Shown here: positions 17,837 through 34,014 of the stretch, in pieces
Layout: every line of letters starts with the position of its first letter
Position numbering within the stretch: the stretch's first letter is position 1
Origin: Fischerella sp. JS2
Lineage (GTDB): Bacteria; Cyanobacteriota; Cyanobacteriia; Cyanobacteriales; Nostocaceae
NCBI RefSeq assembly: GCF_032393985.1
Contig: NZ_CP135918.1
Coordinates: forward strand, 4,961,724-5,025,723
Length of the DNA: 64,000 nt
Reading direction: 5' to 3'
Program-made: the position numbers and the translations under genes
Notes under the pieces: model-generated
The model's input: the letters and a program-made list of their open reading frames with translations, nothing else
Told to the model about the DNA's origin: nothing
Database searches by the model: none

Positions 17837-19634
<1,798 letters not shown>

Positions 19635-31822: not shown

Positions 31823-33598
31823 ATGAATAATCAAACATACACAGCTGATGTTTTAGTAGTCGGTGGTGGGACTGGTGGAACTGCTGCTGCTATCCAAGCA
31901 GCGCGACGGGGAGCAAAAACTATCCTGGTCAGCGAATTTTCTTGGCTGGGAGGAATGCTAACTTCTGCTGGTGTGTCTGCACCGGATGGTAATGAATTAG
32001 AAGCTTTGCAAACAGGTTTATGGGGAGCATTTTTACGAGAATTACAACAGCGACAACCAGGAGGATTAGATAATAGTTGGGTCAGTTTTTTTAGTTATGA
32101 TCCGTGTATAGGCGCAGATATTTTTGCGGATTGGGTGCGGGAATTACCAAATCTGCTTTGGATTTCTGGATATGTGCCTTTGGAGGTTTTCCGAGAAGGA
32201 GATTGTATAACTGGCGTTGGATTTGCAGATTTTACTGTTAAAGCCAAAGTGACTCTCGACGCTACGGAATTAGGGGATTTATTAGCTTTAGCAGATATAT
32301 CTCATCGCTGGGGTTGGGAATTGCAGTCGGAGTTTGGAGAAATTAGCGCCCCAGCTGATTTTAATTCTCTCACAACAAAATATCCTGTGCAAGCCCCGAC
32401 CTGGGTAGTGGTGATGCAAGATTACGGTGAAACTGTTGCCCCAGAAATCCCGCCTGTGCCAAACTATGATCCATCACTGTTTGCTGGTGCTTGGGATGGC
32501 TATGGTGCTGAAAATTTTTTAAACTATGGACGCTTACCAGGAAACAGGTTCATGATCAATTGGCCGATTCACGGTAATGATTATGGTGAAGGTACAGGGC
32601 TATTAATTAAGTCAGAATCAGCAAGGCGAAATTTTCAAAGAGAATGCCTTTGGCATAGTCAGAATTTTGCCCATTTTATTCAAAATCAGCTTGGTCGTCG
32701 CTATGGTTTAGCAAATGGTATTTTTCCCCAAACCCAAAATCGAACAAGTGCTTATGCTTTACAGCCCTACTACCGCGAAAGTCGTCGTCTAGTAGGGTTA
32801 ACTACTATTAGAGAACAGGATATTTTACCAGTAGCAGGGGGTAGGGTAGCAGCATTAAATATAGATGCGATCGCGATTGGCAACTACGCCAACGACCATC
32901 ATTATCCTGGTGTTAAGTTCGACCTACAACCAAAATCCATTCGTTGGGGAGGGCGCTGGACGGGGACTCCCTTCACTATTCCTTATCGTTGTCTAATTCC
33001 GGTAGAGACAGACGGTTTACTGGTGTGTGAAAAGAATATTTCTGTGTCTCATATTGCCAATGGCGCAACTAGATTGCAACCTGTTGTTATGGGTATTGGT
33101 CAAGCAGCAGGGATGGCTGCTGCTATTTGTGTAGAGTTGAATTGCCAGCCCAGAGATTTACCCGTTAGAGTCCTACAAACAGCTTTACTACTAGATCAAA
33201 TAGCACCTGCGGCTGTGATTCCGTTATTCAACCTTTCACCCACCGATAGAAATTGGTTACACTGGCAACGCTATTACTTAGACCATCCAGAAGCCTACTC
33301 ATGTAGTGGATGTTGTCCTAATAATTTTGATAATCAGTATTTTTACGACAGTATAAAAACTGTACAAGAACAACATTTTAACTGTTTTCAAGGTATTTTT
33401 CACCGTTTAGATCAGCAAGATTACAGATTCACGATCACGATTCCAGCTTCATACAAAGGCCAAATTTGGCAGCTTGTGACTCTGCGATCGCACATCAACG
33501 AGCGGCTACAAACATTATCTCACGGGCAAAAACTCAAGATTTGGGGTCGCCTCAATCATGCTGGTCATTGGTTACTAGTAGAAAATACTCATTGCTAA
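31823..33598 (+). CDS. FAD-dependent oxidoreductase (FAD_oxidored family)
   Basis: A 591-aa flavoprotein. N-terminal dinucleotide-binding motif VVGGGTGGTAAAIQAARRGA at about 12-31, followed by SWLGGMLTSAG, typical of the FAD-dependent oxidoreductase family PF12831. The centre has DATELGDLLALA (FAD contact) and near the C-terminal third HIANGATRLQPVVMGIGQAAG. No signal peptide. The last about 100 residues are a beta-rich extension. Members are found in many cyanobacteria with no assigned reaction. It is a single gene, with patX starting 110 bp downstream on the same strand. Confidence 0.88.
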   Translation: MNNQTYTADVLVVGGGTGGTAAAIQAARRGAKTILVSEFSWLGGMLTSAGVSAPDGNELEALQTGLWGAFLRELQQRQPGGLDNSWVSFFSYDPCIGADIFADWVRELPNLLWISGYVPLEVFREGDCITGVGFADFTVKAKVTLDATELGDLLALADISHRWGWELQSEFGEISAPADFNSLTTKYPVQAPTWVVVMQDYGETVAPEIPPVPNYDPSLFAGAWDGYGAENFLNYGRLPGNRFMINWPIHGNDYGEGTGLLIKSESARRNFQRECLWHSQNFAHFIQNQLGRRYGLANGIFPQTQNRTSAYALQPYYRESRRLVGLTTIREQDILPVAGGRVAALNIDAIAIGNYANDHHYPGVKFDLQPKSIRWGGRWTGTPFTIPYRCLIPVETDGLLVCEKNISVSHIANGATRLQPVVMGIGQAAGMAAAICVELNCQPRDLPVRVLQTALLLDQIAPAAVIPLFNLSPTDRNWLHWQRYYLDHPEAYSCSGCCPNNFDNQYFYDSIKTVQEQHFNCFQGIFHRLDQQDYRFTITIPASYKGQIWQLVTLRSHINERLQTLSHGQKLKIWGRLNHAGHWLLVENTHC

Positions 33599-33645
33599 AT
33601 CAAATATTTTTTTCAGTTAAAAACAATACTTTTTTTACCAAATTG

Positions 33646-33676
33646 TCCGGAAGCAGTAAAAAAAACTCAGTATCAG
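33646..33676 (+). promoter_or_regulatory. DIF1-type promoter of the patX-like gene
   Basis: TCCGGA at 33646-33651 followed 19 bases later by TATCAG, a plausible -10. TCCGGA near -35 is the DIF1 motif reported for early differentiating-cell promoters such as patX and nsiR1. About 58 bases separate it from the patX ATG. Function is inferred. Confidence 0.6.
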
Positions 33677-33708
33677 TGAAATGAAGAGTTTTAAAATAGA
33701 CACTTGTT

Positions 33709-34014
33709 ATGCGTGCTGCCATTTCACTTTTGGTTACAGGTCTGTTACTGAGCAGCCTAGCTGCGAACAGCCAAACAGTTACCAATTCCCTATCCCATAT
33801 GTTGCAATCTCACTCTAGTTCTTACCTGTTAATCTCGGCAAAATCTAAACCCTCTAAGTCTCCATATCGAGGTAGTGGACGCGATCGAGACAGAGAAAGA
33901 GTGTCTTATCTTTTACTGTCTTCAAAAGCCAATCCTCCCAAAAACCGTCCCGCGAAGGGTGGTTCACGTAGAGATTTAATGGAACATTCTGGTAATAAGC
34001 ATGTTGTTGCCTAA
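33709..34014 (+). CDS. patX: PatX-like secreted precursor with internal RGSGR pentapeptide
   Basis: A 101-aa protein with a Sec signal peptide (hydrophobic about 5-19). The exact heterocyst-inhibitor pentapeptide RGSGR is at residues 54-58 (DNA 33868-33882). PatX proteins of heterocystous cyanobacteria have a signal peptide and an RG(S/T)GR motif and repress differentiation by binding HetR. The tail contains a second, degenerate copy: SYLLISAKSKPSKSPYRGSG is echoed by SYLLLSSKANPPKNRPAKGG then SRR, an internal duplication of about 28 residues with GGSRR in place of RGSGR. Canonical PatX ends close after the motif; this one continues with a charged DRDRER stretch. A TCCGGA DIF1-type box lies upstream, and HetR with intact RGSGR contacts is about 15 kb away. 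Confidence 0.85.
   Translation: MRAAISLLVTGLLLSSLAANSQTVTNSLSHMLQSHSSSYLLISAKSKPSKSPYRGSGRDRDRERVSYLLLSSKANPPKNRPAKGGSRRDLMEHSGNKHVVA

Follow-up and report, generated by a model that had tools for sequence, protein, structure and literature searches.

The short gene described here, which lies in a 64,000-nucleotide stretch of the genome of Fischerella sp. JS2 (hereafter the window), is a genuine patX of a known family that carries a derived internal duplication. PatX is a small cyanobacterial protein thought to be the source of a peptide that blocks the conversion of neighbouring cells to nitrogen-fixing cells. Comparison of the positions of the two copies firmly indicates that the canonical C-terminal site is the changed one and that the predicted HetR ligand survives in the first copy. 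Equally firm are the presence of this form across its group and the range of motif numbers found in PatX-like precursors.

Identification of the Fischerella patX gene

The 101-residue precursor matched the NCBIfam equivalog model heterocyst_PatX (NF047413.1) from profile position 1 with 87.6 bits (E 6.8e-25; curated cut-off 30 bits), and Pfam gave no match to it at E up to 10. The other marks of a PatX were also found, namely an RG(S/T)GR motif, a hydrophobic start, an upstream DIF1 box and a HetR in the same genome. From the N-terminus onward, the precursor consists of the hydrophobic start, a spacer, unit A with YRGSGR, unit B with KGGSRRDLMEH, and a tail (Table 1). The hydrophobic N-terminus resembles that of other PatX proteins, judging from the profile match and the alignment, and export is predicted accordingly. 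A C-terminal pentapeptide, which is usual in PatX although not defining, is absent: 43 residues follow RGSGR, compared with at most 19 in the single-motif relatives (n = 73) and exactly 14 in 41 of these. PatX with several motif copies depart from this placement as well. The protein also differs from a PatS minigene, a short peptide ending in ERGSGR, in being 101 residues long with YRGSGR in mid-protein.

The initial annotation had proposed a PatX-like precursor with an exact RGSGR at residues 54‒58, which the family score bears out. It had also allowed that the motif might be a coincidence should no PatX homologue align in the signal-peptide and flanking regions. Homologues do align there, the single-motif relatives from the start codon onward, and the gene 5' of patX is the same in 9/9 named loci. 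A chance RGSGR in an unrelated exported protein is therefore refuted by the family match and the alignment, and the promoter spacing and the shared upstream gene also speak against it. We give it practically no credence; the RGSGR of this precursor is not coincidental.

The product of the upstream gene reads like an FAD-dependent oxidoreductase. Downstream of patX lies an IS200/IS605-type element with TnpB and TnpA families (34577‒36149), and a gene for a bifunctional arginine dihydrolase/ornithine cyclodeaminase (ArgZ; 36333‒38456, minus strand) is also close to patX. A second PatX-like match in the host genome (E 0.57, with an internal stop) was judged to be due to chance.

Table 1 Features of the patX locus and the predicted target gene, in window positions
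Feature	Position	Strand	Basis
Upstream gene, 591-aa protein	31823..33598	+	no NCBIfam match (E up to 1e-10)
NtcA-like site GTT-N8-TAC, 5/6 consensus bases	33616..33629	+	read from the sequence, inexact
DIF1-type box TCCGGA	33646..33651	+	spacing as in 85/102 box-bearing PatX-type ORFs
Conserved leader, box to start codon, 57 nt	33652..33708	+	column consensus of 78 unique upstream regions
patX CDS, 101 aa (ATG at 33709, stop ending at 34014)	33709..34014	+	NF047413.1 match
Hydrophobic N-terminus, residues 1‒26, probable Sec signal peptide	33709..33786	+	alignment with N-termini of relatives
Unit A, residues 38‒65: intact (Y)RGSGR, then DRDRER	33820..33903	+	internal alignment and 9-protein alignment
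RGSGR, residues 54‒58, predicted HetR ligand	33868..33882	+	invariant in 9 aligned duplicated-type proteins
Unit B, residues 66‒93, altered copy	33904..33987	+	internal alignment and 9-protein alignment
KGGSRR, residues 83‒88, at the position of canonical RGSGR-R	33955..33972	+	PatX-tail score
hetR, predicted target	17837..18736	-	NF009718.0 equivalog, 619.6 bits

The second copy occupies the canonical site

Local protein alignment of residues 1‒65 with residues 66‒101 scored 57 against a shuffle mean of 23.4, and none of 2000 shuffles scored as high. The internal duplication claimed earlier is thus real at the protein level, with a repeat of 28 residues. At the DNA level the signal was weak (43/2000 codon shuffles reached the observed score) and a search for DNA repeats listed no direct one, suggesting that the duplication is old. 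The second unit had been read as GGSRR. These residues are indeed present at 84‒88, but the register homologous to RGSGR is KGGSR (residues 83‒87), followed by an arginine as in canonical RGSGR-R.

The segments after the two motifs were scored against 41 PatX tails of exactly 14 residues, taken from a set of 73 unique PatX that have a single motif and a box at the 57-nt spacing. The segment after KGGSR scored 17.2 bits as a canonical tail, a value that none of 5000 shuffles reached, versus ‒25.7 bits for the segment after the RGSGR of unit A (3356/5000 shuffles as high). The other eight duplicated-type proteins followed suit, with weaker scores in g48 and g9 (3.8 and 2.3 bits, respectively). 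The flanks before the motifs were weakly similar to canonical ones in both units (136/5000 shuffles as high for unit A and 245/5000 for unit B). In a tandem duplication, the original left-hand flank ends up beside the first copy and the original right-hand flank beside the last, so neither copy can be called the original. Unit B, however, carries the ordinary PatX C-terminus, which argues that it stands at the canonical site and that RGSGR|R has there been changed to KGGSR|R.

The description of unit B as a degenerate copy therefore holds insofar as it is altered from RGSGR, but this copy bears the canonical tail and has an altered form in all nine genomes listed from four genera, which were grouped by having it. 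The further idea that processing must differ was not supported. DRDRER, which follows the RGSGR of unit A, is unlike canonical PatX tails, so that a peptide with R58 as its last residue can only be assumed to be released.

Promoter spacing and a conserved leader

A DIF1-type TCCGGA box had been reported upstream of the gene. This claim stands: 57 nt separate the end of the box from the ATG, and no other spacing is as common in box-bearing PatX-type ORFs. The box was found within 150 nt upstream of the ATG in 102/129 unique PatX-type ORFs, and 85 of these show precisely the 57-nt spacing; the ORFs had been chosen by rule (exact RG[ST]GR and a hydrophobic start) at loci partly selected for long frames. 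Loci with no exact RG[ST]GR frame, such as L202, L207 and L208, were left out of the ORF counts, some possibly non-PatX short ORFs (e.g. L199 and L203) were retained, and the second ORF of L017 entered the promoter count. Many of the 27 box-less ORFs have TCCTGA-like letters at a similar place, as judged by eye. Elhai and Khudyakov in 2018 are said to have used a rule for PatX that places the DIF1 motif "within 69 nt". It is the position of the box that is informative, its number being not significant (3 TCCGGA in the window versus 7.45 expected).

Searched in its exact form, TCCGGA occurs in the window only at 33646, 52140 and 63291, none of them near hetR. In Nostoc PCC 7120, hetR has a DIF1 promoter, and patS, hetR and patX are described as needing hetZ for upregulation from their DIF1 promoters (PMC7377430).

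The 57 nt between box and start codon are conserved in length and sequence across 78 unique upstream regions, beyond the expectation for a promoter box alone. Judging from this pattern, they probably comprise the ‒10 region, the transcript start and a 5' leader. A sigma-70 scan of 33590‒34600 gave 3 sites versus 2.4 by chance, none of them before the ATG. Further upstream, a sequence resembling the NtcA consensus starts 93 nt before the ATG and is inexact in the window; of the 78 unique upstream regions whose box has the 57-nt spacing, 52 contain an exact GTA-N8-TAC, and in 46 of them its first base lies 91 nt before the ATG.

Distribution of the duplicated form

The host genome is a single 7.02 Mb contig. 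Its nearest named relatives are Fischerella thermalis PCC 7521 (94% identity in the best segment) and F. muscicola PCC 7414 (93%), followed at 80‒82% by Pelatocladus, Westiellopsis and other Fischerella strains. The alignment with relatives and the search for the duplication in them, both suggested by the initial annotation, showed that homologues align and that the duplicated form is present in Fischerella and further genera. It was found in 3/3 genomes of the genus Fischerella and, among the matches listed, in four g5 genomes (G006, G058, G227 and G228), while diverged forms with RGGERR and RGGDNRR occur in one genome each of g48 and g9. The form thus appears to be common to Fischerella and Pelatocladus-type genomes, with diverged versions in two further genera. 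Among the matches listed, all nine sampled genomes of these four genera have [KR]GG(S/E/DN)RR[DE], the group itself being defined by having an altered copy. YRGSGR is unchanged in the nine proteins, although its codons show silent changes. At the altered site, the first arginine is kept in 2/9 proteins (RGGSR in L078 and RGGER in L079); RGGDNR stands there in the g9 protein.

The same-family set comprised 59 relatives besides the window. The f1 matches with a frame of at least 98 aa were examined (G001, G002, G006, G010, G049, G053 and G058; the second frame of G038, 489 aa and below the cut-off, was excluded), and all were of the duplicated type except G053, which is extended at its N-terminal side. 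In a family search of 217 genomes, the other long frames examined among the matches listed were N-terminal extensions or g7 mid-protein insertions. Among 388 genomes of the order, full-length matches to a model of the duplicated form came only from the window's genome and G001; the other duplicated-type genomes are presumably missing there because they were not drawn. Searches of viral contigs gave 22 pattern matches to the duplicated type and no relatives by tblastn.

In a HetR tree of 29/30 sequences (one partial row was dropped), g1, g5 and g48 formed a clade (99/99), with G010 outside it and unplaced. A single origin of the duplicated form was neither rejected nor shown by this tree (AU p 0.06).

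HetR as the predicted target

The HetR encoded in the window showed no differences over 299 residues from the chain of PDB 3QOD, which we take to be a Fischerella protein. All six peptide-pocket residues checked are kept (R223, E253, E254, D256, D270 and D278), in agreement with the earlier claim for R223, E253, E254 and D270. The loose linkage of patX and hetR proposed before is also borne out. The two genes are 15.0 kb apart on opposite strands here; across 30 genomes, they share a contig in 15 (the window's included) and lie on separate contigs in 15, with distances within 15 kb in 8/30 and from 34.8 kb to 4.7 Mb in 7/30.

In the structural work on HetR, the arginines of the peptide are described as bonding with E253, D270' and D278' and its serine with E253, with the C-terminal carboxylate near R223 (PMC4649674). 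KGGSR has neither the first arginine nor a serine at place 3, from which we infer that it would bind HetR weakly or not at all.

Multi-copy precursors and a recurring GGxRR pattern

Known PatX proteins had been said to have a single motif close to the C-terminal end. As to number, this is correct for the window's family, in which 91/91 unique proteins have one motif, but in other families 3 to 17 copies occur. PatX-like precursors of this kind were found in f33 (3‒4 copies, 5/5 unique proteins), f21 (3‒6 copies, 7/17) and f9 (11 and 17 copies, 2/11); their total of 14/158 is not a prevalence, the loci having been partly picked for long frames. The two longest arrays are at L213 (48‒1064, minus strand), with 17 copies in repeats of mostly 15‒16 residues, and L087 (504‒1109, plus strand), with 11 copies in repeats of mostly 11‒12; the further multi-copy loci are L197, L214, L187, L163, L206, L074, L164, L183, L083, L215, L216 and L217. 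By whole-protein score, L163 (98.4 bits), L074 (81.4) and L197 (69.1) exceed the PatX cut-off of 30 bits, and L083 (26.4), L087 (23.3) and L213 (15.8) fall under it; the place of L087 scored 34.1 bits in the genome search. We make no claim of novelty for multi-copy PatX. Yeast alpha-factor is a familiar exported precursor in which a single signal is repeated, and the PatX-like proteins of f9, f21 and f33 resemble it in this respect. The Fischerella PatX differs from it in having one intact copy only, and shared ancestry is not claimed.

Family f15 shows the reverse of the Fischerella arrangement, with an altered upstream copy (e.g. SGGARRDF or PGGQRRDF) and an intact C-terminal one. At the f15 loci L165, L166, L184, L186, L196 and L086, the upstream copy is GGxRRDF-like, SGESRRDF, RGERRRDF or RGSDRREF, and the downstream HRGSGR is intact. 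In one f2 genome (L092), a contig carries two distinct patX-like genes with about 800 nt between them.

The pattern GGx(x)RR, which covers the GGSRR, GGERR and GGDNRR of the Fischerella type, was found outside the four duplicated-type genera in 6/149 PatX-type proteins from 6/68 genera, in families f1 (g18), f15 and f21. Shuffled proteins gave a mean of 0.05 and never reached 6 in 1000 runs; this count was made after the fact on related rows, and shuffling also destroys the G/R-rich patch of any decayed copy. GGx(x)RR thus recurs among PatX, and this recurrence does not imply a functional role.

Possible constraint on unit B

In 12 non-independent pairs between g1 and g5, dN/dS was lowest in PYRGSGR (0), followed by unit B (0.11), the signal region (0.18), the spacer (0.44) and the final eight residues (0.60). 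For unit B against g48 it was 0.39. Fisher tests on unit B in five single pairs gave p values of 0.036, 0.008, 0.24, 0.036 and 0.050. Taken as a whole, these comparisons suggest that unit B is under constraint. Our main reading is that unit B most likely no longer yields a strong HetR ligand and would have been retained as a pro-segment at the C-terminus, where it might help the peptidase to recognise the precursor or keep the latter stable; we rate this at about even chances, the pro-segment role being an inference.

A different role for unit B would be that of a second, distinct signal or modulator, in which a GGxRR-type element kept by selection acts on another receptor or competes at HetR or the peptidase. 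The presence of the element in all nine sampled genomes, a g1‒g5 dN/dS of unit B below that of the spacer and near that of the signal region, and the six GGx(x)RR proteins from six genera and three families are in its favour. However, the sites are few, as the spread of the single-pair p values (0.008 to 0.24) illustrates, dN/dS rises against g48, and the tail after unit B is looser. Moreover, the pattern was written after the outside cases had been seen, and its excess may reflect independent decay of duplicated RGSGRR copies, whose local make-up the shuffles break; decayed copies of another appearance, FGNGR and LGSGR, occur in family f33. We consider a second signal unlikely. An extension of this idea to the whole family is similarly doubtful: PatX proteins might be modular signal carriers that gain motif copies by internal duplication (up to 17). 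In several lineages, one copy would have become a conserved GGxRR element that has ceased to mimic RGSGR and acts either as another signal or as a competitor within the precursor, adjusting processing or the inhibition of HetR.

A further possibility is that unit B has remained from the duplication as a neutral remnant and continues to decay. The DNA similarity between units A and B is nearly gone, unit B differs between g1/g5, g48 and g9, and in the comparison of (g1,g5) with g48 amino-acid changes in unit B outnumber silent ones by count (7.0 versus 4.4). Per site, however, amino-acid change in unit B was slower than silent change in all four comparisons, and a [KR]GGx(x)RR core is common to the nine proteins. 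A dead second copy was made a rival rather than the main reading because of these dN/dS comparisons and the recurrence of GGx(x)RR, and we hold it to be improbable.

Discussion

The proposed working of the Fischerella protein is as follows. Early in nitrogen starvation, patX would be switched on from its DIF1-type promoter, and a PatP-type peptidase would process the precursor after its export. In neighbouring cells, the (Y)RGSGR from unit A would then occupy the hood pocket of HetR, and HetR with bound peptide would stop binding DNA. That the gene is the PatX of a heterocyst-forming Fischerella-type cyanobacterium and works as a HetR-inhibitor precursor is, in our assessment, likely. In the export study of PCC 7120, one of the two inhibitor-flanking peptides looks like what we take to be a stretch of maltose-binding protein, so that the C-side cut may be unmapped. 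According to this study, the activity of Nostoc PCC 7120 PatX depends on export and its maturation on PatP, the synthetic hexapeptide HRGTGR binds at 88 nM, and the precise in vivo cuts remain to be confirmed in the authors' own words (PMC12756182). Closer to the present strain, added RGSGR is described to stop heterocysts in Mastigocladus laminosus, which was found close to Fischerella muscicola PCC 7414 (PMC5812504), and a Mastigocladus orthologue is reported to block heterocysts on overexpression (PMC7761841, citing its reference 53). The PatX of Leptolyngbya BL0902, on the other hand, appeared largely independent of HetR (PMC11298460), which indicates that the PatX-HetR pathway is not universal.

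PatX also need not be the main signal in Fischerella, since the host genome has a candidate PatS minigene (L130, MLFDPSSERGSGR), with a TCCGGA that starts 533 nt before its ERGSGR codons. The PatS family model gave 14.1 bits there against a cut-off of 30 and also matched 10/14 control genomes at E up to 10, which leaves PatS as no more than a candidate. An ERG(S/T)GR DNA pattern had 8 matches in the host genome versus 5 for the control, including L130 (with an ATG and ending in ERGSGR) and L127 (a 13-residue frame with the same end and no ATG). The RG(S/T)GR DNA pattern was uninformative in this genome (119 matches versus 150 for the reversed control).

Compared with the PatX of Nostocaceae (Nostoc PCC 7120 and relatives), the Fischerella protein shares the hydrophobic N-terminus, RG(S/T)GR, an RR[DE]L-type tail and TCCGGA at 57 nt. 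It differs in that Nostocaceae PatX have one motif near the C-terminus, whereas here the motif is in mid-protein and KGGSR occupies the C-terminal site. By description, it falls in the same gene group as the "alternative PatS" of Section V strains (Antonaru and Nurnberg 2017, PMC5812504), which have prolines before Y/HRGSGR and are mostly 65‒115 aa long. That paper reports this form for most Section V strains and includes Fischerella PCC 7414 and PCC 7521 among the strains of its Table 1, and its methods mention "putative motif paralogy"; the parts of its text available to us hold no description of the duplication or the KGGSR copy. It states that the function of "alternative PatS" remains to be explored, and, in the same parts, patS of PCC 7120 is the gene that was expressed, the alternative form being left to later work. 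The 17-aa PatS minigene of PCC 7120 has RGSGR and a DIF1 promoter in common with the Fischerella gene (PMC5812504, PMC7377430). It differs in being short, ending in ERGSGR and being described as processed in the producing cell, whereas the Fischerella PatX is a duplicated precursor that is predicted to be exported.

HetR and RGSGR peptides form a leading model of bacterial pattern formation. The Fischerella PatX separates the ligand from the conserved C-terminal flank, two elements that are joined in ordinary PatX, and thereby opens a test of what this flank is for; binding tests would be straightforward, since its HetR matches the crystallised 3QOD protein without a difference. With precursors of 3 to 17 copies, in turn, it becomes testable whether signal dose, and hence spacing, follows the number of motifs.
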